A stretch of 64,000 bases of DNA, taken from assembly GCA_033763975.1 (NCBI GenBank), contig JANRJM010000017.1, positions 1-64,000 on the forward strand. The letters run 5' to 3'. Origin of the DNA: Planctomycetota bacterium (lineage in GTDB: Bacteria; Planctomycetota; Phycisphaerae; Phycisphaerales; UBA1924). Below the pieces are notes generated by a model. That model was not told the DNA's origin. It saw nothing but the letters and a program-made list of their open reading frames with translations, and searched no databases. The position numbers were made by a program, and so were the translations under genes. Below are positions 20,773 to 39,902 of this stretch, piece after piece; position 1 is the first letter of the stretch, and every line of letters starts with the position of its first letter.

Positions 20773-22008
20773 TCACGGCGTGAGGAACGCGTCTTCCTCG
20801 GAGGAGGGGAACTCGCGCCCGCGGATCTCGATGAAGCCCTCGCGGACGCCGCGACGCCCCAGTTCGAGCGCGGTCTGCTCGGCGAGCTGCATCGGGGTGG
20901 TCAGCCAGATGTTGTCGCCGTCGACGACCGGGGAGGTGACCCAGCCGCCCGAGCCGTCGTTGCGCAGGACCCATTGGCCCTTGCCGCCGTGGTTGGCGGA
21001 GTTCTGCCCGGCGACCCAGGCGGACCCGGCCAGGACGCTGCGGACGACGGGCGACGCGTCGGCGAGGATGACGAGGCGGGGGCCCTGCGACCAGCGCGGG
21101 CGGCTCTCGCCGAACATGTTCTGATAACTGTACGAAACCTCGGAGATGCAGGACCAGTCTTCGGCGTTCGTCGGGCAGCGGCCGGCGGGGGCGGCGTCGT
21201 TGTTCGGGCAGGCCATCGCCGTAAGCGTGGTGTACTGGAGTTTGGGCAGACGGAAGAGATTGGCGGAGTTGGACTTTCCGGGCCCGCCGCCGACCTCCCA
21301 CCACGCGCCGCCACCAAGGCCGGCGGCGGCGACGGGCAACTGGTCGCGATAGTCGTTGGAGTACATGCCGAAGGCACCGGCGAGCGTGGCGTAGTTGGTG
21401 CCGCACGCGCCCCGGGCCTGGTGCGAGCGGACGGTGGAGACCATCGGGACGAGGATGGAGGAGGCGATGAGCAGCGTGGCGGCGACGGAGACGAGATCGC
21501 CCAGGCGGAAGCCGCCGAACACGGCGCGCGAGGAGCGGTCCTGGCGGCGGACGCGGATGGGCACGCCCGACAGCGTGCGCTCGACGAGCGAGGGGTTGGA
21601 GATGGCGGGCCCGGCCGAGGCCGTGAGGAGCGAGCCGATGAGGGCGAGTCGCTCGGCGCGTGGGCGGAGCGAAGCGGGGACGCGCTCGGGGCTGAATCGT
21701 TCGGTGACGAAGGCGTCGAGGGCGTCCTGGTCGTCGGTGGAAAGGGCCGGCTCCCGGGCCGGGGCGGCGCGGAGCACGCGAGCCATGGTGACATCCGCGA
21801 GGGTTGCGGGGTCGCGGGCGCGCAGGCCGGGATCGGCGCGATCGAGCAGGGAGAGGAGTGAGACGATGCGATCGGCCCGGTGTCGGCGCTCGTCCGAGAC
21901 GCGGCGCGGGTCCCAGCCTGCGGAGCAGATGTCGTCGAGAGCGTGCTGGTCGGCGGGAGAGAGCCGGTGCTGATTGAAGTCGGTCGGATGGGCGTGGTCG
22001 GTGGTCAT
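20773..22008 (-). CDS. Putative anti-sigma factor with prepilin-like C-terminal domain
   Basis: A 411-residue protein. The first ~185 residues hold two similar helical segments (each with a DALD...-RxxxR pattern) that look like cytoplasmic anti-sigma repeats. A membrane helix follows at about 192-215 (VSVAATLLIASSILVPMVSTV). The outer part contains ANHGGKGQWVLRNDG...VDGDNIW, like the H-x-DG prepilin-like domain common in planctomycetes (DUF1559 type). The ATG overlaps the stop of the upstream ECF sigma gene (ATGA). It is probably a membrane sensor that holds the sigma factor; the ligand is unknown. Confidence 0.65.
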   Translation of the reverse strand: MTTDHAHPTDFNQHRLSPADQHALDDICSAGWDPRRVSDERRHRADRIVSLLSLLDRADPGLRARDPATLADVTMARVLRAAPAREPALSTDDQDALDAFVTERFSPERVPASLRPRAERLALIGSLLTASAGPAISNPSLVERTLSGVPIRVRRQDRSSRAVFGGFRLGDLVSVAATLLIASSILVPMVSTVRSHQARGACGTNYATLAGAFGMYSNDYRDQLPVAAAGLGGGAWWEVGGGPGKSNSANLFRLPKLQYTTLTAMACPNNDAAPAGRCPTNAEDWSCISEVSYSYQNMFGESRPRWSQGPRLVILADASPVVRSVLAGSAWVAGQNSANHGGKGQWVLRNDGSGGWVTSPVVDGDNIWLTTPMQLAEQTALELGRRGVREGFIEIRGREFPSSEEDAFLTP

Positions 22009-22640
22009 GGCGTGTGAGGCGGCGTCCTGGGGTGGTCTTCTGTCGAACCTCGTGCGCGGGCGAGCGCGTCCCACTTTTTCGCGAACGCGGCGACGGCCGC
22101 GTGGAGTCGAGATTTCACGGTGCCGAGCGGGATTCCCAGTTCGTCGTGCATCTGTGCGTAGCTGAGGCGTTGGAAGTAGGCCAGGAGCAGGATTTCTCGG
22201 AGGAGCGGGGGCATCTCGTCGAGGGCTTCCTGGACGAGCCGGCTTGTCTCCTCCGCGTCGAGCCGGGCGTCGGGCCCGGGCAGGTTGATCTCCATCAGGT
22301 CGACGTAGGACGTGCCCGAGTCGTCGGAGCCGTTGTCGACCGGGGCGGAGAGTTCCAGCATCCTCCGCCGTCCCTTCCTACGGAGGTAGTCGCGCGCTTT
22401 GTTCGCCGCGATCGTGAAAAGCCAGGGACGAAAGCGGCGCGTGGGGTCGAATGTGTCGGCGGAGAGGTGAATCTGGAGAAAGGTCTCCTGGAAGACGTCC
22501 TCGGCGCCGGCGGCGTCGCCGGCCAGGCGGATGAGGAACCGCATGAGTTCCGCCTGGTGGCGTTCGATGAGCGTTCGGAGGGCGCCCCGGTCGCCGGTCC
22601 GATACTGCTCGAACAGTACTTCGTCGCTGGCCTGCTCCAC
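22005..22640 (-). CDS. ECF sigma-70 factor (module 2)
   Basis: A 211-residue ECF sigma factor. Region 2 includes AEDVFQETFLQIHLS and RRFRPWLFTIAANKARDYLRR (residues 46-90); region 4 includes LREILLLAYFQRLSYAQMHDELGIPLGTVKSRLHAA (145-180). The HTH motif GIPLGTVKSRL is classical. It is translationally coupled to the downstream anti-sigma/prepilin hybrid. The start is ATG at MEQASDEV. Confidence 0.92.
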   Translation of the reverse strand: MEQASDEVLFEQYRTGDRGALRTLIERHQAELMRFLIRLAGDAAGAEDVFQETFLQIHLSADTFDPTRRFRPWLFTIAANKARDYLRRKGRRRMLELSAPVDNGSDDSGTSYVDLMEINLPGPDARLDAEETSRLVQEALDEMPPLLREILLLAYFQRLSYAQMHDELGIPLGTVKSRLHAAVAAFAKKWDALARARGSTEDHPRTPPHTP

Positions 22641-22991: not shown

Positions 22992-23060
22992 GGGGGAAAC
23001 CTAGGCTCGGGCGCCGGGAAAAGGCAATGAGCGGGCGGCGGCGGCGTTGTGCGCCGGGCA

Positions 23061-23066
23061 AGGAGT
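23061..23066 (+). promoter_or_regulatory. Shine-Dalgarno site fixing ECF module 3 start
   Basis: AAGGAG lies ten bases before the ATG at 23077 and supports MGHEHP over the start at 23047. Confidence 0.55.
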
Positions 23067-23076
23067 TCGACAGGCG

Positions 23077-23703
23077 ATGGGGCATGAACATCCCCGGCAC
23101 GAAGAAGCCGTCGGCTCTGCGCTGCCGTCCGGAGGGGACGGACCCGACGCCGACCTGGCGCGCGTGCTGCGCGAGGCGGCGGGCGGGAGCCAGCAGGCGT
23201 GGGGCGTGCTGGTGGGGATGTACGGGCGGCGGATCTTCGCGCTCGCGAAGAGCCGCTGCAGGAAGCGCGAGGTGGCGGAGGACATCACGCAATCGGTGCT
23301 CGCAACGGTTGCGACGAAGCTGTCGAGCGGGGAGTACGTGGAACAGGGCCGGTTCGAGGCGTGGCTGTTCCGGGTGGTGATGAACCGCGTGCGCGACCAT
23401 GTGCGGTCGGTGCGGCGGCGTCCGGAGATGGCGGCGGGCGAGGCGGTGGAGGGCGTGGCGGCGAGCGGGCATGCCGCGACGGGCGGGAGCGAGTTGGACG
23501 CGCTGCGGAGCGCGATGGATCGTCTGGCGGACGCGGACCGGGAGGTCATCGAGTTGCGTCACCACGGGGGCATGAGTTTCAAGGAGATGGCCGAGATGCT
23601 GGGCGAGCCCCTGGGCACCTTGCTGGCGCGTCACCACCGGGCGCTGCGCAAGCTGCGGGAAATGATGGAAGCGGCGGAGGTTCGCGGGGAGGTCACGACA
23701 TGA
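23077..23703 (+). CDS. ECF sigma-70 factor (module 3)
   Basis: A 208-residue ECF sigma factor. Region 2 spans about residues 40-110 (EVAEDITQSVLATVATKL, then RFEAWLFRVVMNRVRDHVRS). Region 4 spans about 140-190 (DREVIELRHHGGMSFKEMAEMLGEPLGTLLARHHRAL). Its stop overlaps the next start (ATGA), giving coupled synthesis with a single-helix anti-sigma candidate. It is divergent from module 2 and separated from it by the DUF4286 gene. Confidence 0.92.
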   Translation: MGHEHPRHEEAVGSALPSGGDGPDADLARVLREAAGGSQQAWGVLVGMYGRRIFALAKSRCRKREVAEDITQSVLATVATKLSSGEYVEQGRFEAWLFRVVMNRVRDHVRSVRRRPEMAAGEAVEGVAASGHAATGGSELDALRSAMDRLADADREVIELRHHGGMSFKEMAEMLGEPLGTLLARHHRALRKLREMMEAAEVRGEVTT

Positions 23704-25606: not shown

Positions 25607-26602
25607 CTACGAGCCGGAGGTGCTGGGCGCGGGCGTGCTCGTCGCGGGCTCGTTGCTCGGCGCGTCGGCGGGTTCTTCGGCGGGTTCTGAGCCGTCGGGC
25701 GTGCGGACCCAGCGGCCGTCGCGCCAGTAGACGGCGCGCGGGTCGACTTCGAAGACGCGGGCCACGCCATCGGGGGTTGGATCGTGCAGGGGCGCCCCGG
25801 CATCGGTCACGACCTGGGCGGCCCAGGAGCGCTGGGTTCCCTCGAGCACCCAGGATTCGAAACGCAGGTGCGCCAGCAGTTCGGCGCGGGTCAGCCGGGG
25901 GCCGGGGTTGCCCGCGCAATGGAAGCAGATGCGCGGGTCGGCACGCCCGCGCTTGAGCAGGCGGTCGTTGCCGCACTCCGGGCAGGGCCAGCGTTCGGCC
26001 TCGCGCGAGAGCGACGAGACGCTGCCCGCGCCCAGGCGACGCAGCAGCGTGTCGTAGCGGTCGAGCGAGGCTCGCACCGCGGGCCGCGCGAGCAACTGAC
26101 GGGCGCGGAGCCCTTCGCCGCTGCGAACGAGCCCGAGAAAGAGCACGGCCTGGTACTCGTCGGACTCGACGGCGGTGGGCGGGCCGGCCTGCATCCAGGG
26201 CGGGGGCGCGTGGCGCGGGTCGAACGTCCGCGCGAGCGCGACGAGCCACCGGCGTTCGCCCTCGTCGCGGGTGAGGTCGGCGAGCGCGAGGCACGCGGCG
26301 GCGCTGATCCACCCGGAGCCAGGGGCCGCCCGTCCGGTCTCGAACGCGAGCACGAGCAGGGTGGTCGCGAGCTCGCGCGAATCGGCGTCTGGCGCTTCGG
26401 CGGCGGCCTCTTCGCCCAGGAGCAGATACGCCTCGGGATCTGTGGGCGCCAGCGCCAGCAGCCGGTCGGAGAGGCGTCGCTCGATCGGTTCGGCGGGCGG
26501 GATCGCCTGCCCGGCTGCTTCGGGGGGCGTCGGGGGCGCGGGCTGCGCGTGGGCCGCCACGGCGGCGGCGAGGATGACGGCGGGCACGAGCCGGCGTGTC
26601 AT
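25607..26602 (-). CDS. Exported protein with zinc-ribbon-like Cys motif, last gene of VWA/ExbBD operon
   Basis: A 331-residue protein with a signal peptide (MTRRLVPAVILAAAVAAHA). Residues 45-200 are helical and repeat-like, including DPEAYLLLGEEAA, reminiscent of tetratricopeptide repeats. A CPECG...CFHC motif lies around 207-229, an unusual zinc ribbon for an exported protein. The C-terminus is Pro/Ser/Thr-rich. The ATG overlaps the stop of the preceding gene (ATGA), so it belongs to the eight-gene operon. I recognise no named family. Confidence 0.65.
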   Translation of the reverse strand: MTRRLVPAVILAAAVAAHAQPAPPTPPEAAGQAIPPAEPIERRLSDRLLALAPTDPEAYLLLGEEAAAEAPDADSRELATTLLVLAFETGRAAPGSGWISAAACLALADLTRDEGERRWLVALARTFDPRHAPPPWMQAGPPTAVESDEYQAVLFLGLVRSGEGLRARQLLARPAVRASLDRYDTLLRRLGAGSVSSLSREAERWPCPECGNDRLLKRGRADPRICFHCAGNPGPRLTRAELLAHLRFESWVLEGTQRSWAAQVVTDAGAPLHDPTPDGVARVFEVDPRAVYWRDGRWVRTPDGSEPAEEPADAPSNEPATSTPAPSTSGS

Positions 26603-29388
26603 GAGGCACCCCCACCGAAGCGGAGCAGGTTGAGTCGGAGCATCGCGCGTTCACCGGCCTCGATCTGCGAGAAGACGTGGCGTGCGCCGGCGCGGGAGGC
26701 TTCCAGGTCGGCGAGGGCGGCCTTGGCCTCGGAAGCGGCATCGGCCCGCTCGGACGCAACCATGTACGCGAGGAGTTCGCACAGCGACACCTGCTCGGCG
26801 GCGAAGGCCTGGATGCGTCCGGAGGCGACCTGCACGCGAGCGGCACGGCGGGCGTCGAGCTCGAGCAGGCCGAACGGCTCGCGCCCGGTGACGAGCAGCG
26901 ATTCCGCGTCGCGGCGCATGCGGGCGCGGAGCGTGGCGGCGGAGGCTTCCGGCGGAGGAGGCTCGGCGGCGTCCGCGGCGGTGTCGCCCAGTCGCCCGAG
27001 GTACGAGGTCGCGATCTCGGCGGCGGCCTTGTCGAAGAACGCGAGTTCGCCTTCGTCGGTGACGAGTTCGATGAGGCGCTCGACGAGCGCCCGCCGGACC
27101 GCGACGCGCCATTGCGGGCTGCGCGGAGAAGGGAGCGGGGAAAGGCAGACCTGGGCGAGCAGGTTGGAGTTGTCGCGCGTGGCGGGCAGCGTCGGGCTGA
27201 GTTCGAGCAGGGCGTTCACGATGGTCGCCTCGCCCGAGTAGCGCAGCACCAGCGCCCGCGCGTCCTGTCGCACCTGCACGGGCGAGCCGCGCATCGCCTC
27301 GTCGGCGATGATGTCGGCCTCGAGCGGCGAGGGGGGCTGCGAGATCTGATTGAGGATCTCGCGGCGCGGGGGGATGGCCTGCCCGGCGCTGAGGTACCGC
27401 ACGGCCCAGGTGGTCGTGAGCACGTCGGCGTCGGACCGGAGCAGCGCGGGCGCCGACGCGCCGGGCGTCGGCGGGGCGGGCGGCTGGAGCGGTGCCGCGG
27501 AAATCAGCGACGCCACGCCCTCGGTGCGACCGGCCCAGAGGAGGGTGGCGGCCTCGTTGAGGCGCGCGAGGGTTGTCGCGGCGGCGATGTCGCCGGCGGG
27601 GGTGCCCGGCGGCGGCACGAGCGCCTCGCGCGCGAGGGTCATCCAGCGGTCGAGCAGTTCGGATCGCGTCGGGCCCGCGAGCACGCCCCACACGCTCCCG
27701 TAGCGTTCGCGCAGTTCCGATCGCTGGGAGTCGGTGGCGCCCGGGGAGAGCACCATCGTGAAGTCCACGCCCGGCGCGCCGGATTTCGTGGCGATCGCCG
27801 CGGTCACCGCGTGCAGGTCGGCGCCGCTGATCGCGGGCGAGCCGAACCAGCCGAGCAGCGCGTTCCGCGTGGCGTCGCCCTCGCGCCAGGACAGCGTCGC
27901 CGTGAGGCGGGTGAGCGCGTCGAACACGGCGCGGCTCTGGAATGGCTCGGGGGCTTCGCGCATGAGCTGGTCCATCGCCTGCACGCCGAAGCGCTGGTCG
28001 AGCGACTCGCCATCGCCCTGCAGGGCCCGGGCGGTCGCGAGGTACGCGTCCCACGCCTGGTCCGCGTCGCGGAGCGTGCGCTCGTCGGCGTTCGGCGGCA
28101 CGAGCAGGCGGGCGGGCAGGGCCGCGAGCGACGCGAGCGCGCCGGCGCGGAAGGTGGTCTCGGCGGGCGCCGATCCGCCCGCGAATGCGCGTGCGAAGGC
28201 GTCGCGGCAGGCGTCGCGGACAGGGGTGGGCAGGTCGCGCTCGCGGAGGAACCGGGCGGCGAGCCCGCCCCGCCAGGTCTGCGTCGAGACGAGTGACGCG
28301 CTGACGGGAGCGGAGGCCGCGCGGGCGTCGGGAGGGATGGCCGCGGCAACCGCGATGGCGCCGCGGGAGGCGCTGTCGGACGCGCGGTAGACGAACTCGA
28401 CCTGCGAGGCGACGGCGGCGACGACGGCGTCGGGGCTGCCGGTCACCCATTCGACCTCCACGCGCCGGCAGGCCCGCTCGTAGCGGTCGAGGGCGGCGTC
28501 GGGATCGAGCTCCAGCGCCTGCACGCTCGCGTCGAGTTCACGCAGCACGTCGGTGAAGTCGCCCACGCGCGCCGGGGTGGGCGGCGGCGTTGGTGCGGGC
28601 GTCTGCGGGGGCGGCGCGGGGAACAACTGCGCGGGGGCATCGGCCCCGGCCGGCGCGACGGGGGGCGCAGCCTGCGCGATTTCGGGCGTGGGCGGCGGAG
28701 GCGTGGCGCCCGGGGGCGCGGAGGGCGTGCCGAGCAGGATGAGGACGCCCACGATCGCGACGAGCACCACCACGCCGACGATTGCCGCGCCCGCAACGAC
28801 GAGCACCTTCACCGGGCGGTTGCCGGTCTCGATGGGCGGGAACTCGTCGGCGCCGATCGGGACTGGCGGCGTGCTCGAAGGCACATCGATACGTCGCGCG
28901 GCGGGCGCGACGGCGGTTTGCGGCGGGGGCGAGGGCAGCGGCGGCGCGGCCTCTCGGAGTCGGAGACGAGGCGGCGGCGGGGACGCGGGCGCACGCGTCA
29001 GGTCTGCGACGGCGGCCATCAGTTGGTCGGCGTCGATGCCGTGCGACTGCGCGATGAGCGTGACGCGGCGCATGGCGTCGCGATTCCACCCGCCGGAAAC
29101 ACCGACCGCGCGGAGGAGTTCTTCGCGCAGCGAGGTGTCGTTGGCGGGCGCGTCGGACGCCGCGATGAGCAGGCGGGCGGCGGCGGCGTGGAGCGCCATG
29201 CGGACTTCATCGGCGAGCACGCTGTTGGCGTTGGGGTGGGCGTCGATGGTGGCGAGGCGGGCGTGCAGGGCGTCGAGGACGTCCTGGTCGAGGTACGGGC
29301 CGTCGGGCAGCGCGAGCAGGCTGCGCGGATCGGAGCGCACGTCCGCGCCGAAGAACTGCTGCGCCGGGCTGCGCTGGGTGTCGCTCAC
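26599..29388 (-). CDS. 929-residue single-pass membrane protein of VWA/ExbBD operon
   Basis: The N-terminal part (1-135) is helical and cytoplasmic, followed by a Pro-rich linker. A membrane helix spans about residues 194-219 (VLVVAGAAIVGVVVLVAIVG), then a second Pro-rich stretch (225-285) and a long helical domain to the end, probably in the periplasm. The two Pro-rich linkers resemble the periplasm-spanning regions of TonB and TolA, but there is no TonB C-terminal domain. Translation starts at GTG in a GTGA overlap with the upstream gene. A role as the force-transmitting arm of the ExbB/ExbD motor is possible but unproven. Confidence 0.65.
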   Translation of the reverse strand: MSDTQRSPAQQFFGADVRSDPRSLLALPDGPYLDQDVLDALHARLATIDAHPNANSVLADEVRMALHAAAARLLIAASDAPANDTSLREELLRAVGVSGGWNRDAMRRVTLIAQSHGIDADQLMAAVADLTRAPASPPPPRLRLREAAPPLPSPPPQTAVAPAARRIDVPSSTPPVPIGADEFPPIETGNRPVKVLVVAGAAIVGVVVLVAIVGVLILLGTPSAPPGATPPPPTPEIAQAAPPVAPAGADAPAQLFPAPPPQTPAPTPPPTPARVGDFTDVLRELDASVQALELDPDAALDRYERACRRVEVEWVTGSPDAVVAAVASQVEFVYRASDSASRGAIAVAAAIPPDARAASAPVSASLVSTQTWRGGLAARFLRERDLPTPVRDACRDAFARAFAGGSAPAETTFRAGALASLAALPARLLVPPNADERTLRDADQAWDAYLATARALQGDGESLDQRFGVQAMDQLMREAPEPFQSRAVFDALTRLTATLSWREGDATRNALLGWFGSPAISGADLHAVTAAIATKSGAPGVDFTMVLSPGATDSQRSELRERYGSVWGVLAGPTRSELLDRWMTLAREALVPPPGTPAGDIAAATTLARLNEAATLLWAGRTEGVASLISAAPLQPPAPPTPGASAPALLRSDADVLTTTWAVRYLSAGQAIPPRREILNQISQPPSPLEADIIADEAMRGSPVQVRQDARALVLRYSGEATIVNALLELSPTLPATRDNSNLLAQVCLSPLPSPRSPQWRVAVRRALVERLIELVTDEGELAFFDKAAAEIATSYLGRLGDTAADAAEPPPPEASAATLRARMRRDAESLLVTGREPFGLLELDARRAARVQVASGRIQAFAAEQVSLCELLAYMVASERADAASEAKAALADLEASRAGARHVFSQIEAGERAMLRLNLLRFGGGAS

Positions 29389-32108
29389 CGTGGGGGTGCC
29401 TCCGTGGGAGCGGGTGTCCCGGGAGCGGGCGCGGGTGGTGGTGCGGGCGGGGCGGGGCGGGCGAGCTCCAGCTCCTGGAACTTGGAGCGCCAGGGCTCCG
29501 GGCCGCGGTCGGGGTGAAGGACGATGAACTGCTCGAAGGCGGCGTGCGTGTTGGGGTCGGTGGTCTTGACCATGAGCCGGAGCGAGTGGTAGCGGGCCTC
29601 GAACCAGGCGTCGCTGGCGCTCTCGGTGCTGAGCAGCACCTCGTTCCACGCGCTGAGGGCACCGGCGGGGTCGCCGTCGCGCTCGAGCAACTCGCCGAGG
29701 CGGCGGAGCGAGGCGAGGGTGCGCTGCCCGCTCTCGAGCTGGGCGCGATCCGTGCGGATGGCGAGCTCGCGCATGGCGGGGTCGTCGGTGGCGCGGAAGA
29801 GTGCCGCGGCGGCGTCGGCGACGGACTCGCGGACGGAGGCGAGCACCACGCCCTCGCCGGCGCCCTCGAGTTCGTCGAGCACGCGCAGGCCGAAGCCGAC
29901 GACATCGCGGGCGGCCTGGGGATCGTGCGGCGCGTCCTTCCAGCGGAGCTGGGCGCGCCGGAGCATGAGCCGGTCGGCGCCGCGCGAGAACCCGTCGGGG
30001 TCCTGGCGGAGGAGATCGAGCAGGCGGCGGGCCTGCGATTCGTCGTCCTTCGCGAGCGCGATCTGGAACCGGCGAAATCGCAGCTCGGACTGCAGTTCAT
30101 CGAGCGGGAGACCGTGGTGCGACTGCACGGCGTCGAGCGCCAGCATCGCGGCCTCGGCACGCGCGACGTCCGGCGCCGCCAGCGAGAGCAGCGCGTCGGC
30201 GAGCTGGCGGACGCGGAGCACCACCGCGTCTGCGGCCCGACGCGATTCCTCGTCGTTGCCCGCCAGCGCCCGCGCACGCTCGAGGCGAAGGGCCAACTCC
30301 CCCACGTCCGCGAAGCGCAGGGCGGCGAAGTCGCGATCGGCGGGCGAGGCCCGCTTGAACAGCGCGTACAGCAGGCGGGCGGCCTGGCGACGCGACGCCT
30401 CGAAGAGCGGGGAATCGTCCGGCACCGCGAGCAGCACCTCGACGGACTTCGCGTCGCTCAGACGATCGGCGCGCGTCTGGCGCAGGAGCAGGCGGGCGGC
30501 GTTGTCGGACCCCGGAAACTCCTGCAGGTACAGCGTCGCCAGGCGGTCGCGCGGCTCGATGTTCGACGCCAGCCCGCGCTCGACCGCGCGGTCGAGCGAC
30601 ACGATGGCGTACCACAGCGCGTCGCGCCGCACGTCGGGCGGGGCACCCTGCGCGGCCCGCTGGAAGCGCTCGGCGGCGGGGGCGAACGCGCCCGCGTAGT
30701 AGAGCGCCAGGCCTTCGCGCACCCGGGCGCGCGGGAGTTCGGCGGGAAAGTCGCGTGCGTCGGCGGCGTCGAGCGCCGCCCCGAGCAACTCGGCGGCCTC
30801 GCGGTAGAGGTTGGAGGTGGCGGCGTCGGTCGCGGGCTCTTCGGCCGATCCCGTGGCGCGGTGCGACTCGCGGGCGCGTTCGTACGTCTGCAGGCCCCGG
30901 ACGTAGCCGACGATGAAGCCCTTCTCGCCGATGGGCGCGGTGCCGAAGAGGCGGACGAGGTCGAGCACGTGCCCGACCTCGGCGCGAGAGACGAGATCGG
31001 CGAGGGCGATCTGGGCGCATCGCTCGGCGATGGGGCGCAGGCCCGGGCGGGTGTCCTGGCTGCGGGCCGCCTGGAGTGATTCAATCGCGAGCAGGCGGGC
31101 CTCGGGGACGGTGAGGCGCGGATCCTCTCGCCCGAGTTCGTCGTCGACGAGGCGATGGCGCTTCACGCGCAGGTCGATGTCGGCCCAGTAGCCGGCGGCG
31201 GCGGCGACGCGGATGCGCCGGGCGAACAACTGCTCGGCGACGCTCGGGGGCAGGTCCTCGGCGCGTTCCAGTTCGTCGAGCCAGCGCTGGGCCTCGACAT
31301 GCGAGCCCAGCAGCGAGGCGCACAGGGCGGCTCCCATGCAGGCGCGGGCGACGTGCTCGTAGCGCAGCAGGTCCTTGGGCATGCGTTCGACGCTCGCCGG
31401 GCGCCCGGGGACGGCGTTGAGGATGGCGCCGAAGTCCACGAGGGCCGCCTGGGCGTCGCGGGGCGAGTTGGTGAGCATCGCGAGGTAGCACCCCGACCAG
31501 CCGGCGTAGTAGCGGGCGAGCGAGCGCAGGCGGCGTGCGTCGGAGAGTTCGGCGCGGATGGCCTCGAGGTCGGCGTCGCGCGCGTTGGGCTCGCGCGCCT
31601 CGAGCACCTCGATCTTGCGGTGCAGCTTGGCGCCGAGTTCGTCGAAGACGGGGCGCACGGTGCGCAGCACGCGCTCGGCCTCGGCCCGGTCCGCGGGCGA
31701 GAGGAGTTTCAGCGCGTCGCGCTCGGCGAGTTCCTCCGCCTGGAGGTACGTCGCCTTCGCGAGGTTGATGCGCAGTTCGTACGACTCGGCCTCGGGAACG
31801 ATCTCGAGCAGTTGGCGGGACTCGGCCTCGAGCGATTGGCGCCGGGCGGCGTCGGTCGTGCCGGTCAGCATGCGGACGTACAGGCGGCCCAGCGACTCGG
31901 CCGCCTCAACGCGGTCTTCCGGGGCGCCCTCGGACAGTCGCCTGCGGAGGTGGGCGGCGAGCACGCGCTCGAGCCCGTGGTCGGCGAGGTAGGCCTCCAG
32001 AACTTCGTCGCCGGTGGGTTCGCTCTGGGCGAGCAGTGTCGAGGCGGGCGCGAGCACGCCCAGCAGCGAGCAGAAGGCGAGGAGTTGGACGCTACGACCC
32101 GGGCACAT
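29385..32108 (-). CDS. 907-residue exported helical-repeat protein of VWA/ExbBD operon
   Basis: A signal peptide (MCPGRSVQLLAFCSLLGVLAPASTLLAQ) is followed by almost continuous amphipathic helices rich in Ala, Arg, Leu and Glu, in the style of tetratricopeptide-like solenoids (EAAELLGAALDAAD, AAERFQRAAQGAP). No catalytic motif is visible. The start overlaps the end of the second ExbD gene by 17 bases. The protein probably works as a periplasmic scaffold next to the motor subunits. Confidence 0.65.
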   Translation of the reverse strand: MCPGRSVQLLAFCSLLGVLAPASTLLAQSEPTGDEVLEAYLADHGLERVLAAHLRRRLSEGAPEDRVEAAESLGRLYVRMLTGTTDAARRQSLEAESRQLLEIVPEAESYELRINLAKATYLQAEELAERDALKLLSPADRAEAERVLRTVRPVFDELGAKLHRKIEVLEAREPNARDADLEAIRAELSDARRLRSLARYYAGWSGCYLAMLTNSPRDAQAALVDFGAILNAVPGRPASVERMPKDLLRYEHVARACMGAALCASLLGSHVEAQRWLDELERAEDLPPSVAEQLFARRIRVAAAAGYWADIDLRVKRHRLVDDELGREDPRLTVPEARLLAIESLQAARSQDTRPGLRPIAERCAQIALADLVSRAEVGHVLDLVRLFGTAPIGEKGFIVGYVRGLQTYERARESHRATGSAEEPATDAATSNLYREAAELLGAALDAADARDFPAELPRARVREGLALYYAGAFAPAAERFQRAAQGAPPDVRRDALWYAIVSLDRAVERGLASNIEPRDRLATLYLQEFPGSDNAARLLLRQTRADRLSDAKSVEVLLAVPDDSPLFEASRRQAARLLYALFKRASPADRDFAALRFADVGELALRLERARALAGNDEESRRAADAVVLRVRQLADALLSLAAPDVARAEAAMLALDAVQSHHGLPLDELQSELRFRRFQIALAKDDESQARRLLDLLRQDPDGFSRGADRLMLRRAQLRWKDAPHDPQAARDVVGFGLRVLDELEGAGEGVVLASVRESVADAAAALFRATDDPAMRELAIRTDRAQLESGQRTLASLRRLGELLERDGDPAGALSAWNEVLLSTESASDAWFEARYHSLRLMVKTTDPNTHAAFEQFIVLHPDRGPEPWRSKFQELELARPAPPAPPPAPAPGTPAPTEAPPR

Positions 32109-32511
32109 AGCTGATCTTCGTGAAACCCGCCTCCCGACCGGCCGCGACCGCGGCGGCCGCGGCACCCACGGGAACGTCGGCGTTCACGCGGATGACGATG
32201 CCCGCGGAAGTCGGCAGGCTGCGGAGGACCGCCCCCAGCGCCTCGCGCGACTCCATCACGCGCTCGCCCATCCTGTACCGGACGCGGCCCCCCGCGGATT
32301 CAACGATCAGGACCTGCGGCACCAGGCCCCCCGACGCGCCGCCCGGGCTGGTGTCGGCCTGGATGGCGCTGGCCAGGTGGCGTTCTTCGGGCGTCAGGTC
32401 GGCGACATAGCAGAAGTACAGCAGCAGGAAGAGGACGACGTCGATGATCGCGACGAGCGGGAGGCGGGGCGTGTGCCCGTGCCCGCGGCCCGTGGAGCGG
32501 GCGAAGTTCAT
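32092..32511 (-). CDS. ExbD/TolR-family protein (second copy)
   Basis: A 139-residue protein with a short cytoplasmic N-terminus, one membrane helix (LPLVAIIDVVLFLLLYFCYVADL, about 18-40) carrying the conserved Asp (IIDV), and a periplasmic domain ending INADVPVG/ISYVPGS-like beta strands. That Asp in the membrane is the proton-carrying residue of ExbD/TolR motors. It starts within the previous ExbD gene (ATGA). The two ExbD copies differ strongly in sequence, suggesting a hetero-dimeric plug in the ExbB ring. Confidence 0.82.
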   Translation of the reverse strand: MNFARSTGRGHGHTPRLPLVAIIDVVLFLLLYFCYVADLTPEERHLASAIQADTSPGGASGGLVPQVLIVESAGGRVRYRMGERVMESREALGAVLRSLPTSAGIVIRVNADVPVGAAAAAVAAGREAGFTKISYVPGS

Positions 32512-32942
32512 GGGCGGGGGCCCTCCTCGGCGGAGGTGGCGAGGCGCCAGGTGCGGACGCCCGCACGGGAGAGCACGCCGGCGAGGGTGTTGAGGTGAGC
32601 CGCGGACGCGGCGCGGTCGGCGCGGACGATGACGTCGAGGTTCTGCCCGCCGCCGGCGGCGCGGACGTCGCGTGCGACGGACTGCACCAGCCATTCGGGG
32701 TCGGCCCGCTGCCCCATGACGAGGAACGAGCCGTCGCGGGTGATGTCGATGACGAGGGCCTTTGGCGCGGCGCCGGCGGCCTCGCGGGCGCCCTGCTCAC
32801 GCGGGAGGTCCACGGGCGTGGCGAGCGTGCGCGTGAACTGCGCCGTGAACGCGAAGAAGATGACGAGCAGCATCACGACGTCGACCATCGCGGTGAGGTC
32901 GAACTCGGCGGTGTCCTCGTGGATGGTGCGGCCGAACCTCAC
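32508..32942 (-). CDS. ExbD/TolR-family protein (first copy)
   Basis: A 144-residue protein: EFDLTAMVDVVMLLVIFFAFTAQF (about 13-36) is a textbook ExbD/TolR membrane helix with the key Asp in MVDVV, followed by TPVDLP and a periplasmic alpha/beta domain (VIVRADRAASAAHLNTL). It starts with GTG in a GTGA overlap with the ExbB gene. Together with ExbB it should form a proton-driven motor in the inner membrane. Confidence 0.9.
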   Translation of the reverse strand: MRFGRTIHEDTAEFDLTAMVDVVMLLVIFFAFTAQFTRTLATPVDLPREQGAREAAGAAPKALVIDITRDGSFLVMGQRADPEWLVQSVARDVRAAGGGQNLDVIVRADRAASAAHLNTLAGVLSRAGVRTWRLATSAEEGPRP

Positions 32943-33736
32943 GGGGCACCCACCCCGCGGGGGGCGTCGGGGCGCGGCGCGGGGCGCTGGACCGGCGCGG
33001 GCTGGGCCGCGCGGGGAGGCGCGGGCTTGTCGGGCGCGCCGCGCCCTTCAAGCGGCGTGACGATGCGTTCGACGACGGTACCGGCGTCGGTCGCGAGGCG
33101 GTCGATGCGGCGCTTGAAGTAGAAGTAGAACGCGGTGCAGGGGATGGCGACAGCCAGGCCCTGCGCGGTGTTCACAAGGGCGAGGGACATGAACCTGGCC
33201 AGCTCGCGCGAGCGGGTGGCGCCCTCGAGGTCGGCGAGGCTGCCGAAGGCGCCGATGAGGCCGATGACGGTGCCCAGCAGGCCCAGCATCGGGCCCAGGG
33301 CCGCGAGGAGCTGGAGCCCGTCGTTCGTGCGGTAGCGCCGGTCGGCCTCGATCTGGCCGGCCTCTTCGATGGCGCTGCGCAGTTCGAGGAAGCCGAAGGC
33401 GCTGCGTCCGCAGCGGGCGAGGGCGCGGCCGATGACGGCGGTGAGGAAACTCGCGTTGGCGGGGTCGTCGCAGTAGCGGCGCACGCCGTCGAGGTCCTGC
33501 TCGCGGACGAGGCGGGTGAGGGCGTCCTGCACGTCGCGCGGCATCCAGGCGTCGGCGCGCAGGCGGATGAACTGGAGGATCACCAGCGCGAGCGACGAGA
33601 TGGAGAGCCCGATGAGGATGTACCCCAGCAGCCCGCCCGCGCGGATGTAGTCGAGCAGCGAGCGGGTGGTCTCGGGCTCGGGGGCGGGGGCCTGCGCGAG
33701 CAGCGCGAAGGAGGCCTGGGCGGTCACGTCGATCAC
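32939..33736 (-). CDS. MotA/TolQ/ExbB-family proton channel protein
   Basis: A 265-residue protein with three membrane helices (about 36-58, 145-168 and 185-208). The family core is clear: LAALGPMLGLLGTVIGLIGAF and ALVNTAQGLAVAIPCTAFYFYF. The C-terminus is Pro-rich. GTG 33736 is preceded by a Shine-Dalgarno GGAGG (33743-33747, minus strand) at six bases and overlaps the previous stop. ExbB/TolQ pentamers use the proton gradient to drive ExbD/TolR rotation or movement. Confidence 0.92.
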   Translation of the reverse strand: MIDVTAQASFALLAQAPAPEPETTRSLLDYIRAGGLLGYILIGLSISSLALVILQFIRLRADAWMPRDVQDALTRLVREQDLDGVRRYCDDPANASFLTAVIGRALARCGRSAFGFLELRSAIEEAGQIEADRRYRTNDGLQLLAALGPMLGLLGTVIGLIGAFGSLADLEGATRSRELARFMSLALVNTAQGLAVAIPCTAFYFYFKRRIDRLATDAGTVVERIVTPLEGRGAPDKPAPPRAAQPAPVQRPAPRPDAPRGVGAP

Positions 33737-34962
33737 GGGGGACCTCCTGCGGTTGGTGCGTCGTCTGGCTCGGTTGGGGCGGGCGATGCGCGTCGGGCCT
33801 GGGCACGCAGCGGCGCCAGGGCGTCCCACGCGAGCACGGGGTGCCCGGCGAATCGTTCGGTCAGGTCTGCGTACAGCGAGTTCGCGGCGTCGGGCTCGCC
33901 CAACTGGTGCAGCGTGACGGCGGCCTCGGCGAGGCACAGCCCGGTGAGGTAGGGCACGTCGCGCTCGAACTGGGCGGGCACGCGCAGCAGTTCGGCGACG
34001 CCCAGCAGCTTCGTCTCGGTCTCGAGCTCGCGGATCATGGAGCGCCCGACCGCCGCGTGCAGCCAGGCGCGCGTCCACGCCGGGGTGTCGGGCGTGAGGC
34101 GGGCGCGCAGGGCGACGACGGCCGCGGCGCGGGCGGGCGGGTCGCCGGTGCGGGCGGCGACGACGTCGTGCGCGAGCAGCACGCCTTCGTCGGCGTCGGG
34201 CCGCGGGGCCAACCGGGTGGGGAGCCCGGCCTCGTGTCGGAGCGCGTGCAGGTAGATCTGGGCGAGGCGCGCGCCCCTCCCGTCGCCCAGGCCGCTCGCG
34301 AGCGCGTCGCCCCGCTGGGCCTGCGCCCGGACGCTGGGCAGCGGGGCCCACATGGGGGGCACGCCGGGGCTGAGGCGCAACTGCTCGTCCCACGCGAGGC
34401 CCGACGCGAGGCGGTCGCCCGGCGCGCTGATGGACGGGGGCTCGGCGGGCAGCCAGGACTGGTCGCCCTCGCTGCGGGATGCCGCCAGCGCGAGCATGGG
34501 CTCGACCGCCCCCACCACCGCGCCGCGCGCCAGGCGGCACTTGAGCAGGCCCGACGCGACCGCGGCGGGCGTGGGCCCCACCAAGCCCCGCATCGCGGGG
34601 AACAACTCTTCCAACAGCGGCTCGGCGGTGACGTAGTCGCCCCGGCCAACGCGCGACGCGGCCCGCCAGGCGTCATCGGCCAGCGTGCGCATCTCGGGCG
34701 GCAGGCTCGGGACATCGGCGACGCGTTCCCATCCGATGAGGGTGCGGCGGCCCTCGGCGATGACGACGAGCGCCTCGGGCGTCGACTCGACGACGCGGAC
34801 CCGCAGCGCCTGCCCGCCGCGCAGGCGCAGGACCTGGGCCGGCGGGTCGGGCGCGGATGCCCGGGCCGGGCCTTCGCTTGCCGGGGCCTGCGCACGCGTG
34901 GCGGGCGCGGTGCACAGGCACACGCCGGCGGCGAGCAAGATCGCGCGCGGGCGGGGGGTCAT
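33733..34962 (-). CDS. 409-residue exported protein of VWA/ExbBD operon
   Basis: A signal peptide (MTPRPRAILLAAGVCLCTAPATRA) precedes a small beta domain (about 42-85: VLRLRGGQALRVRVVEST... LIGWERV), similar in style to the N-terminal domain of the DUF481 protein at 3765-4787. The rest is helical with solenoid-like repeats. No catalytic motif is seen. It is coupled to both neighbours: ATGA with the VWA gene and GTGA with exbB. A periplasmic adaptor role is inferred from position. Confidence 0.6.
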   Translation of the reverse strand: MTPRPRAILLAAGVCLCTAPATRAQAPASEGPARASAPDPPAQVLRLRGGQALRVRVVESTPEALVVIAEGRRTLIGWERVADVPSLPPEMRTLADDAWRAASRVGRGDYVTAEPLLEELFPAMRGLVGPTPAAVASGLLKCRLARGAVVGAVEPMLALAASRSEGDQSWLPAEPPSISAPGDRLASGLAWDEQLRLSPGVPPMWAPLPSVRAQAQRGDALASGLGDGRGARLAQIYLHALRHEAGLPTRLAPRPDADEGVLLAHDVVAARTGDPPARAAAVVALRARLTPDTPAWTRAWLHAAVGRSMIRELETETKLLGVAELLRVPAQFERDVPYLTGLCLAEAAVTLHQLGEPDAANSLYADLTERFAGHPVLAWDALAPLRAQARRASPAPTEPDDAPTAGGPP

Positions 34963-35942
34963 CGGTCCAGCCTCACGAAGGTGAAGGTGCCCTTGGTGGC
35001 GCGGGCGATTGCGCGCATGCGGGTCTCGCCTTCCTGAGAACCCAGGCAGATACCGTGCACGGGCACTTTCATCTGCTTGGCCATGGCGATGATTCGGGTG
35101 GTGTCGTCGTCGCTGAACTCGCCGTCGGTCATGAAGTAGATCGCGTCGGGGCGTGGGCGGCGGGCGGCGACGATCTCGAAGCCGGGGACCGGGAAGGTGT
35201 TGGCCTCGGCCAGGAGCCCGTCGATGTGGGCGCGCATCGCGCGGCGCACGGCGGGTGACGCCTCCTGCCAGCCCTCGACGTCGCCGATCTGCTTGGCGTC
35301 GGACGAGTACTTGATGATCATGAACTGGGCGGTCTCGAGGAGCGCCTCGACCGAGCGGATGAGTTCGCGCCGCAGGGCGTTCATGCGGACGTCGTCCATG
35401 GAGGCGGAGACATCGACGATGTACGCGAAGCGGTGACCGGTGGCCTCGACGCCGAAGAACGACGCGCCACCCCCGCCGCCCCCCAGGCCGGACCCTTCGC
35501 CCCCGCCGCCGATGTCGCCCCCGCCGCCGACGTCGCCGACTTCGCCGATCTGCCCGGGCTCGCCGCCGAGTTCTCCCTCGCCCCCGATGGCCTCGGGGAT
35601 GTCGGCGGTCATGCCGACGTCTTCGGGAAGGGCGTCGGGCACGCTGGGCGTTCCGGCGTCGATGGCGCTGCCGATGATGGCGTCGAGTTCGCCCTGGGAG
35701 AGAATGGCCATCTCGACGGAGCCGTCGTCCTCGCCGCCCTGCTGGGCGCGGGTCGAGGGGCCGATCTGGATGAAGCGGGAAATCTGCCAGCCGGCCAGGT
35801 GAAGCCCGAGGGAGGCGAGAAGCGCGAGCACGGCGGCGCTGCCGATCCAGCGGAGGAGGAGCTCGCCGAGAGTCGGCGGGATCACCGCGTCACGGTCGTT
35901 GCCGATCTGCGGCGGGGCGTGCTGGGTCGGCGTGGTGTTCAT
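34959..35942 (-). CDS. Membrane-anchored von Willebrand factor A (VWA) protein
   Basis: A 327-residue protein. One membrane helix lies at about 33-52. A Gly-rich, acidic linker (118-160) leads to a VWA domain beginning FAYIVDVSASMDD (173-184) with the metal-binding DxSxS at Asp177, Ser179 and Ser181. A later FMTDGEFSDDD segment adds the remaining metal-site acidic residue. VWA domains bind protein partners in a metal-dependent way. It is the first gene of the eight-gene operon and probably faces the periplasm, recruiting substrates or anchoring the motor. The start MNTTPTQ is chosen over an ATG 15 codons upstream. Confidence 0.85.
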   Translation of the reverse strand: MNTTPTQHAPPQIGNDRDAVIPPTLGELLLRWIGSAAVLALLASLGLHLAGWQISRFIQIGPSTRAQQGGEDDGSVEMAILSQGELDAIIGSAIDAGTPSVPDALPEDVGMTADIPEAIGGEGELGGEPGQIGEVGDVGGGGDIGGGGEGSGLGGGGGGASFFGVEATGHRFAYIVDVSASMDDVRMNALRRELIRSVEALLETAQFMIIKYSSDAKQIGDVEGWQEASPAVRRAMRAHIDGLLAEANTFPVPGFEIVAARRPRPDAIYFMTDGEFSDDDTTRIIAMAKQMKVPVHGICLGSQEGETRMRAIARATKGTFTFVRLDR

Positions 35943-38975: not shown

Positions 38976-39902
38976 ATGCACGACGCCATATCCCGACTGC
39001 GTGACAACGTCGCCTCGGTCCTGTTCGGGAAGCAGGACGTCGTGGACCGCGTGATCGTGTGCCTGCTGGCGCGCGGGCACCTGCTGATCGAGGACGTGCC
39101 GGGCGTGGGCAAGACGGTGCTGGCGACGGCGCTGGCCCGGAGCATCGACGCGACGTTCAGCCGCGTGCAACTGACGCCCGACCTGCTGCCGAGCGACATC
39201 CTGGGCGTGGAAGTGCTGGACGCCCGCACGGGGACGTTCACGTTCAAGAAGGGGCCGATCTTCGCGAACGTGGTGCTGGCGGACGAGGTGAACCGCACGC
39301 CCCCGCGGACGCAGGCGGCCCTGCTCGAGGCGATGGCCGAATCGACGGTGACGGTCGACGGGCGGGTGCTGGCGCTGGAGGCGCCGTTCATGGTGATCGC
39401 GACGCAGAACCCGTTCGACTTCGAGGGGACGTACGCCCTGCCCGAGAACCAGCTCGACCGGTTCCTGATGCGCGTGAGCATCGGCTACCCCAGCCCGGAC
39501 GAGGAATCGCGCGTGCTGCGCGATCGCCCGGCGAACTCGCCCCTGCACTCGCTCCGGCCGGCGATCTCGCGGGCCGACCTGCTGGCACTGCAGGAGGCGG
39601 TCGACCGCGTGACGATCGCGCGCCCGCTGCTGGAGTACATCGTCGCGTTCGCGAACGCGACCCGGCGTGACCCGCGCCTGCTGCACGGGCTCTCGCCCCG
39701 CGGGTCGCTCGCGCTCGCGCAGGCGGCCCGGGCGTCGGCGCTCTTCGCGGGGCGCGACCATGCGCTGCCCGAGGACGTCGTCGAGAACGTCGTCGCGGTG
39801 TGCGCGCACCGCGTGGTGCCCAAGGGCGGGACCATCGCCGACGCCGCGTCGAGCGAGCGCGTCGTCACGGATATCCTGCGATCGCTCCCGCCGATCGTGT
39901 AG
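38976..39902 (+). CDS. MoxR-family AAA+ ATPase
   Basis: A 308-residue AAA+ protein. Walker A is in EDVPGVGKTVLATALARS (about 37-54), Walker B in VVLADEVNRTPP (about 103), sensor regions in VIATQNPFDFEGTYALPENQLDRFLMR. MoxR ATPases act as chaperones for cofactor insertion or assembly of complexes, usually with a DUF58 protein and VWA proteins encoded next to them. Neither partner is adjacent here, although a VWA operon ends 3 kb away on the other strand. Confidence 0.92.
   Translation: MHDAISRLRDNVASVLFGKQDVVDRVIVCLLARGHLLIEDVPGVGKTVLATALARSIDATFSRVQLTPDLLPSDILGVEVLDARTGTFTFKKGPIFANVVLADEVNRTPPRTQAALLEAMAESTVTVDGRVLALEAPFMVIATQNPFDFEGTYALPENQLDRFLMRVSIGYPSPDEESRVLRDRPANSPLHSLRPAISRADLLALQEAVDRVTIARPLLEYIVAFANATRRDPRLLHGLSPRGSLALAQAARASALFAGRDHALPEDVVENVVAVCAHRVVPKGGTIADAASSERVVTDILRSLPPIV

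Follow-up and report, generated by a model that had tools for sequence, protein, structure and literature searches.

A conserved eight-gene planctomycete operon for a VWA protein, an ExbB/ExbD-type motor and large envelope partners

Described envelope motors and the layout of the operon

Proteins with a vWA domain and the topology of TonB or TolA have been proposed to act as force transducers driven by the proton-motive force (PMC12204202, Mol Biol Evol 2025). In the sections of that paper drawn on here, the genes of these transducers are placed, for the PVC group and the Planctomycetes within it, next to a TPR gene, a tolQ gene and a pair of dissimilar tolR genes. Moreover, 'many' of the proteins are said to carry the SHLS motif, a disordered linker precedes the C-terminal vWA domain, and gliding is suggested as a possible role. 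In TonB and TolA the motif reads Ser-3X-His-6X-Leu-3X-Ser, and its Ser and His form a contact hub with TM1 of ExbB/TolQ in which a conserved Ser on TM1 and a Pro on TM3 take part; the motor residues of E. coli are given as Asp25, Thr148 and Thr181 (extracts of PMC12905483). A further machine of related make-up is Agl-Glt of Myxococcus, in which, according to the portion of PMC3169522 used here, one TolQ and two TolR proteins (AglR, AglQ and AglS) occur together with exported TPR proteins and a bitopic partner.

The operon described here lies in a window of 64,000 nucleotides, that is, the whole stretch of DNA that was analysed. It consists of eight minus-strand genes at 25607-35942, all of which are open reading frames without internal stops at the following coordinates:

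Gene A, 34959..35942, minus strand: candidate VWA force transducer of 327 aa, with an N-terminal TM helix, a Gly-rich linker and a C-terminal VWA domain
Gene B, 33733..34962, minus strand: exported protein of 409 aa, with a beta domain (43-83) and TPR-like helical repeats (89-392)
Gene C, 32939..33736, minus strand: ExbB/TolQ-like channel of 265 aa (Pfam MotA_ExbB, 2e-24)
Gene D, 32508..32942, minus strand: first ExbD/TolR-like protein, 144 aa (Pfam ExbD, 2e-17)
Gene E, 32092..32511, minus strand: second, divergent ExbD/TolR-like protein, 139 aa (Pfam ExbD, 1e-8)
Gene F, 29385..32108, minus strand: exported TPR-type solenoid of 907 aa
Gene G, 26599..29388, minus strand: single-pass protein of 929 aa, with a J-like region (1-132), a TM helix (194-218) and a periplasmic all-alpha solenoid (278-923)
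Gene H, 25607..26602, minus strand: exported protein of 331 aa with a four-cysteine zinc-ribbon
C-D-E motor cassette, 32092..33736, minus strand: missing en bloc from the interval between B and F at 10/66 assessable database loci

Every junction overlaps, by 4 nt (ATGA or GTGA) at A/B, B/C, C/D, D/E, F/G and G/H and by 17 nt at E/F. Among the assessable relatives, overlaps of 1 or 4 nt recur at A/B (29/36), B/C (20/31), C/D (26/31), D/E (24/33), F/G (22/39) and G/H (21/39), and an E/F overlap of 14, 17 or 20 nt in 27/33, with the reservation that the relatives' start codons were picked nearest to the position predicted from the window protein, which may somewhat favour these counts. On the sequences compared, the overlap of junctions in relatives exceeds chance. 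The combination of a VWA protein, one ExbB and two ExbD subunits, proposed in an earlier note made from the sequence alone, is borne out by Pfam (VWA, MotA_ExbB and twice ExbD). B, F, G and H match no Pfam family above cut-off. None of the eight proteins shows a TonB/TolA domain in Pfam or NCBIfam, nor an outer-membrane receptor or barrel, transporter or Pal-like family in Pfam. The neighbours of the operon are pyrH, often frr, and a gene for a tRNA-binding protein.

Judged from these features, the operon is of the vWA force transducer kind outlined in PMC12204202. Both have a Ser-x3-His in the TM helix, a linker (Gly-rich here), a C-terminal vWA domain and synteny with a TPR gene, tolQ and a tolR pair. 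In contrast, the vWA gene lies downstream in the arrangement of that paper and first in the present operon, which in addition carries B, G and H and in which the Leu and the last Ser of the motif are unconserved. Relative to the text drawn on, four features seem to be new: the make-up of eight genes, the VWA-first order, a transmembrane solenoid with a J-like domain, and a motor cassette that has been lost repeatedly. No further account of the operon appeared among the literature matches listed. The claim of the earlier note that no described system has this composition is therefore to be narrowed to the wider gene set, which is absent from those sections, as the vWA/TPR/tolQ/two-tolR kind has been described.

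The likeness to better-known machines is partial. The cluster has in common with Tol-Pal the homologues of a motor driven by the proton-motive force, a TonB/TolA-like transducer topology and a TPR partner, but it lacks a recognised TolA or TolB domain, and C and D lie below the tolQ/tolR equivalog level (NCBIfam: C 53.5 bits vs a tolQ cut-off of 221, D 37.1 vs a tolR cut-off of 127.3); C is far under the exbB equivalog cut-off as well. With the Ton system (TonB-ExbBD) it shares motor homology and half of the TM motif, whereas the own genome (G000) encodes no TonB_C and no Plug at E<=1e-3, and TonB import was accordingly rejected for this genome. Agl-Glt resembles the operon in all the components named above; in a comparison made by description and not with Glt sequences, however, no Glt outer-membrane protein was recognised in the operon, and the VWA protein appears here to be tethered to the inner membrane. 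Zorya or another anti-phage system was also considered and dismissed, with 0 PADLOC families for the 8 proteins at E<=0.1.

The motor, the candidate transducer and their partners

The residues on which an ExbBD-type motor of 5:2 composition depends are kept, namely the TM Asp of ExbD, present in 34/34 homologues both for D (D21) and for E (D24), and the two Thr of the ExbB channel, which in C are T156 and T190 (each in 32/32). From the motifs, we read D21/D24, T156 and T190 as the equivalents of E. coli Asp25, Thr148 and Thr181. S45 and P199 of C are each found in 32/32 homologues too and, in our reading, would correspond to the TM1 Ser and TM3 Pro of the contact hub; the partner Trp named in the extracts of PMC12905483 is absent from C. 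At the level of conserved residues, then, a motor with its proton path intact adjoins the VWA protein.

The VWA domain of A is recognised by Pfam at 6e-8 (residues 175-322); against the PDB, A gave by sequence seven weak matches, none of them VWA by name, with a best E of 0.002. In the window protein and 36 relatives, both residues of the Ser-x3-His in the membrane helix (S44 and H48) and all those of the VWA metal site (MIDAS; D177, S179, S181, T249 and D273) are conserved in 37/37, and in a 27-sequence alignment (A7) S44 and H48 are the sole invariant residues between M1 and F162. The full SHLS motif, S-x3-H-x6-L-x3-S, is not conserved in A at its Leu and last Ser (positions 55 and 59). The linker is visibly Gly-rich in the alignment. 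A single hydrophobic segment is present in 36/37 homologues, so that A looks like an inner-membrane tethered protein and not a surface lipoprotein.

The same motif was scored by script in 76/80 database A loci. By eye it is present, out of 79, in 77 with Ser and in 2 with Thr, the four script misses comprising L204 (on the same contig as L066), which has S-x3-H, two proteins with T-x3-H and one truncated protein. Among distant loci it occurs in 11/12 A proteins; the helix picker did not find it in L177 (family f5), and both VWA proteins of L126 (family f6) carry, by eye, Ala instead of Ser, for which reasons the motif is looser outside the families with the eight-gene set. As far as the sequences go, a force transducer like TonB or TolA is the reading that suits A best. 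The role of envelope-spanning partner, which the earlier note had given to G, is thereby reassigned, the TonB-like element being A.

Of the remaining proteins, B, F and G are predicted to consist largely of helical repeats. The model of B (mean pLDDT 89.8) comprises a small beta domain and TPR-like repeats and has no Foldseek match at E<=1e-3; an N-terminal hydrophobic segment is found in 35/37 homologues. F of the window matches TPR_2 only, at E 0.13; members of its alignment (A3) match TPR families (TPR_6 in 12/28, best 1e-15), and an N-terminal hydrophobic segment is present in 37/40, in agreement with the exported, solenoid-like protein of 907 residues foreseen in the earlier note. The small exported zinc-ribbon protein of that note also holds, as H has all four zinc-ribbon Cys in 36/40 homologues and an N-terminal hydrophobic segment in 33/40. 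H proteins of family f4 (L085-L089) have additional CxxC knuckles, which we take to resemble the cysteine-rich region of DnaJ.

For G, the model (mean pLDDT 84.8) begins with a helical domain, crosses the membrane with one helix and continues as a long alpha-solenoid, with no Foldseek/PDB match at E<=1e-3. The single-pass topology attributed to G stands, with one hydrophobic segment in 40/40 homologues; the Pro-rich linkers, presented as spanning the periplasm, are in fact stretches on both sides of the membrane helix. The first ~190 residues, preceding this helix, are read as cytosolic. The N-terminus is aligned by hhalign with 4 J-domains of the own genome (72.5%, E 3.2e-5), its HP falling on their HPD; direct J matches are weak (DnaJ 2 as best PDB match at E 0.13; Pfam DnaJ in 1/40 at 0.18), and the HPD of J-domains is not kept, HPx being found in 28/40, HPD in 2 of those 28, and HPN in the window protein. 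In sequence, the N-terminus of G resembles a degenerate J-like cytosolic domain. Neither FHA nor TonB_C is among the Pfam matches of G.

Structural likenesses to other proteins were discarded as generic helical repeats, uninformative about function: NprR for B (best VIA match, Z 12.8, 249 residues, rmsd 5.9) and beta-catenin for G (best VIA match, Z 8.2, 199 residues, rmsd 16.3). A mutual kinship of B, F, G and H was likewise given up, since hhalign did not support it (best E 0.076 among six pairs), and PHROGs returned nothing useful for these four proteins (best 0.13).

Distribution of the operon and absence of the motor cassette

F and G each match 44/61 related genomes and, in the own family, F is found in 35/37 and G in 36/37 genomes (E<=1e-3). 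In the neighbourhoods of 39 relatives, F, G and H are present in 39/39 and A and B in 36/39, the other three being cut by contig ends. D/E were found in 33 of them, C-D-E is absent in 5, and the contig ends first in 1. pyrH was found in 36/39 neighbourhoods, divergent from A in 35 and in the same orientation in L093. A scan of species genomes with an A profile (one peptide pattern) yielded 299 stretches encoding a relative, of which the best 80 were kept, a choice that biases the set towards the window's own kind; with 14/80 loci set aside for having less than 9.5 kb after A, 66 were assessable. A-B...F-G is found in 66/66 of them and H in 65. For five of the 66, the order of C, D or E came out swapped in the script's output, which is taken as an artefact because open reading frames were sorted by open-frame start.

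Across the phylum, an F profile built from 24 of 40 homologues and 4 sequences of families f5/f6 matched 251/392 genomes at E<=1e-3; many of these matches are short and TPR-like and are therefore not counted as orthologues. Near full-length matches were obtained in the own order and also in family f73, which does not belong to the class and contributed seven genomes. Six f73 loci were fetched: four (L155, L157, L158 and L159) have all eight genes in the same order, L156 has seven, with E not called, and L154, cut by the contig, has B-C-D-E-F. The gene order is thus not limited to the present genome, and the proposed vWA force transducers gain a fixed eight-gene neighbourhood that extends past one planctomycete class. 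At L157:2817-3845, the f73 VWA transducer starts with a CxxC...CxxC zinc-ribbon-like stretch upstream of the membrane helix.

Variants of the arrangement were also met. L168 (family f56) has A-B-C-D-E-F, and L169, of the window's class, has A-C-D-E-F, a 784-aa protein unmatched by the G profile and then H, with no B match. In f5/f6 (Phycisphaerales), a core is found that consists of a VWA protein, doubled in 3/7 loci (L124, L125 and L126), a B-like protein, ExbB, two ExbD, with a third in L124 and L125, and then an F-like protein, without matches to G or H alongside. The F-like protein measures 890-1020 aa in L124-L126, L129 and L177; a 1038-aa protein takes its place in L128, and none was called in L131. 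F and the f5/f6 F-like group are homologous (hhalign: 796 columns, 98.9%, 3.5e-17). The f5/f6 B-like proteins, colinear with B over 287 columns at E 0.0062, are so named mainly by position, given an hhalign probability of just 6%. Another phylum layout, seen in L171, L179 and L188, has a protein of ~1000 aa, ExbB, ExbD and a protein of 1186-1318 aa. L206 (QWIH01000039.1), titled Leptolyngbya sp. PLA1, groups with Phycisphaerales on the F tree and is probably mislabelled.

The motor genes are the changeable part of the operon. C, D and E lie between B and F in 56 of the 66 assessable database loci and are missing in 10, and all ten cassette-less loci retain S-x3-H in A. The absence is clean, with B-F gaps of 2, 23, -4, -4 and -4 nt in five cassette-less relatives, and three of the 14 set-aside short loci also have A, B and F without C. 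On an F tree of the 66 loci and an outgroup, 7 changes are needed to account for the presence or absence of the cassette, and well-supported branches force at least 5 of these, compared with an average of 9.5 for shuffled labels; the tree does not prove the direction of change, and the changes are read as losses because the cassette occupies the same place in f73 and in f5/f6.

Genomes without the cassette have other motor genes. An ExbD pair is present elsewhere in 5/5 cassette-less genomes examined: in G017 the orthologues of C-D-E themselves are found at another site (C 9e-82, D 9e-42, E 3e-49), and in the other four (G020, G024, G035 and G009) the remaining ExbB/ExbD score like an orphan ExbB-ExbD-ExbD motor of the own genome (L104:9041-10604). 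The latter has no VWA or TPR profile match adjoining and is flanked by what we take to be tsaE-like and fur-like genes. At least two ExbD matches were obtained in 14/14 genomes checked, G011 having the operon pair and one single ExbD and no orphan pair. In addition, the own genome encodes a second VWA protein of the f5/f6 type (open frame at C13:12969-14039; L308:8969-10039) with S-x3-H in its membrane helix. Its homologues in G035, G024 and G017 also have S-x3-H (G017 by eye), and the locus of G028 is truncated; in G035 (L309) a 669-aa gene comes next, with a 4-nt overlap. The orphan motor may have this second VWA transducer as its proper partner.

As to the wider envelope, nine own-family genomes gave one weak TonB_C (G024) and Plug in none, TonB_C is present in G042 (family f2), and the two f73 genomes that were checked contain TonB_C as well as Plug. 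Since f73 combines these with the operon and G042 has TonB_C, the operon does not simply take the place of Ton. Omp85 in 11/12 genomes, own genome included, and OmpA/Pal-like domains in 12/12 make these genomes look diderm. The earlier statement that TonB, TolA, TolB and Pal are lacking is, as regards Pal, right for the cluster and does not extend to the genome, where Pal-like/OmpA domains occur elsewhere; a Pal-like partner encoded outside the operon is possible.

A possible mechanism and competing explanations

The operon is a real, conserved and probably energised envelope machine. We give a probability of roughly 0.55 to the reading that, on sequence and models, it encodes a trans-envelope force machine in which proton flow through C/D/E would drive A inside a B/F/G scaffold. 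More specifically, proton flow would move the helix of A, docked on C through S44/H48; the linker would transmit the force to the VWA domain, and the metal site of that domain would grip a partner in the envelope by one of its acidic side chains. This partner would be held in position by a periplasmic scaffold made of F and B, for which G would provide the connection to inner membrane and cytosol. In genomes where C-D-E is missing, A would most likely dock on another ExbB-ExbD-ExbD motor. By weaker reasoning, the task could be the cyclic loading and release of a link between outer membrane and cell wall, in analogy with Tol-Pal. Envelope maintenance is the favoured biological role, as a set that is near-universal in its own family and adjoins pyrH, and often frr, is more in keeping with a core function of the envelope. 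These findings would bear on how the outer membrane is energised in diderm planctomycetes without recognisable TonB.

A tentative extension, that may well be wrong, is that the motor is exchangeable: A would dock on the ExbBDD encoded with it or, once the cassette has been lost, on an orphan ExbBDD that is shared, and the J-like domain of G would tie the force-bearing scaffold to cytosolic chaperones. If true, Ton and Tol would be joined by a third energised envelope system, which would be the principal one where a lineage has no TonB. The second VWA transducer may itself partner the orphan motor, and motor exchange is therefore put forward as a hypothesis and not as a result. Nevertheless, motor genes lost with the docking motif retained amount to a natural experiment, which makes the exchange testable. 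The same ten loci, where A-B-F-G-H persist without C-D-E, mean that these five proteins may have a motor-independent role, so that they could form a periplasmic assembly or quality-control complex, with TPR scaffolds, the J-like cytosolic domain and the zinc ribbon as its parts and ExbBDD as an accessory lost repeatedly. The number of changes on the F tree, the clean B-F junctions and the J-like domain of G would all suit this explanation, which we nonetheless hold to be unlikely: S-x3-H persists in A of all ten cassette-less loci, hard to explain without a motor, and each of the five such genomes examined has its ExbD pair elsewhere.

Compared with the force machine acting in envelope maintenance, a role at the cell surface appears distinctly improbable. 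According to that explanation, motor-driven scaffolds would move an adhesin-like VWA element along the surface or across it, as in a motility or transport machine like Agl-Glt, with which the operon shares the one-TolQ, two-TolR motor make-up, exported TPR proteins and a bitopic protein (PMC3169522, in the portion used), and the possible gliding role raised in PMC12204202, again in the sections drawn on, points the same way. However, A looks tethered to the inner membrane by its one hydrophobic segment, no protein of the eight matches an outer-membrane barrel family in Pfam, G has no FHA or TonB_C match, and the operon is near-universal in its own family. Least probable of all, and hardly to be expected, is a TonB-like import or a secretion of large molecules. 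ExbB/ExbD homology and the likeness to an energised envelope system would speak for it, but the own genome has neither TonB_C nor Plug, the eight genes include no transporter or receptor family in Pfam, and the neighbours are pyrH, frr and the gene of a tRNA-binding protein; the suggestion of secretion or large-molecule uptake in the earlier note finds no support in a set so widespread in its family.

Two further features of the window lie outside the operon. MoxR proteins are often paired with VWA proteins, and a MoxR-type AAA ATPase is encoded at 38976-39902, separated from the VWA gene by four others. On the other side, at 22005-22640 and 23047-23703, two sigma-70-type (ECF-like) factors are encoded near each other on opposite strands.
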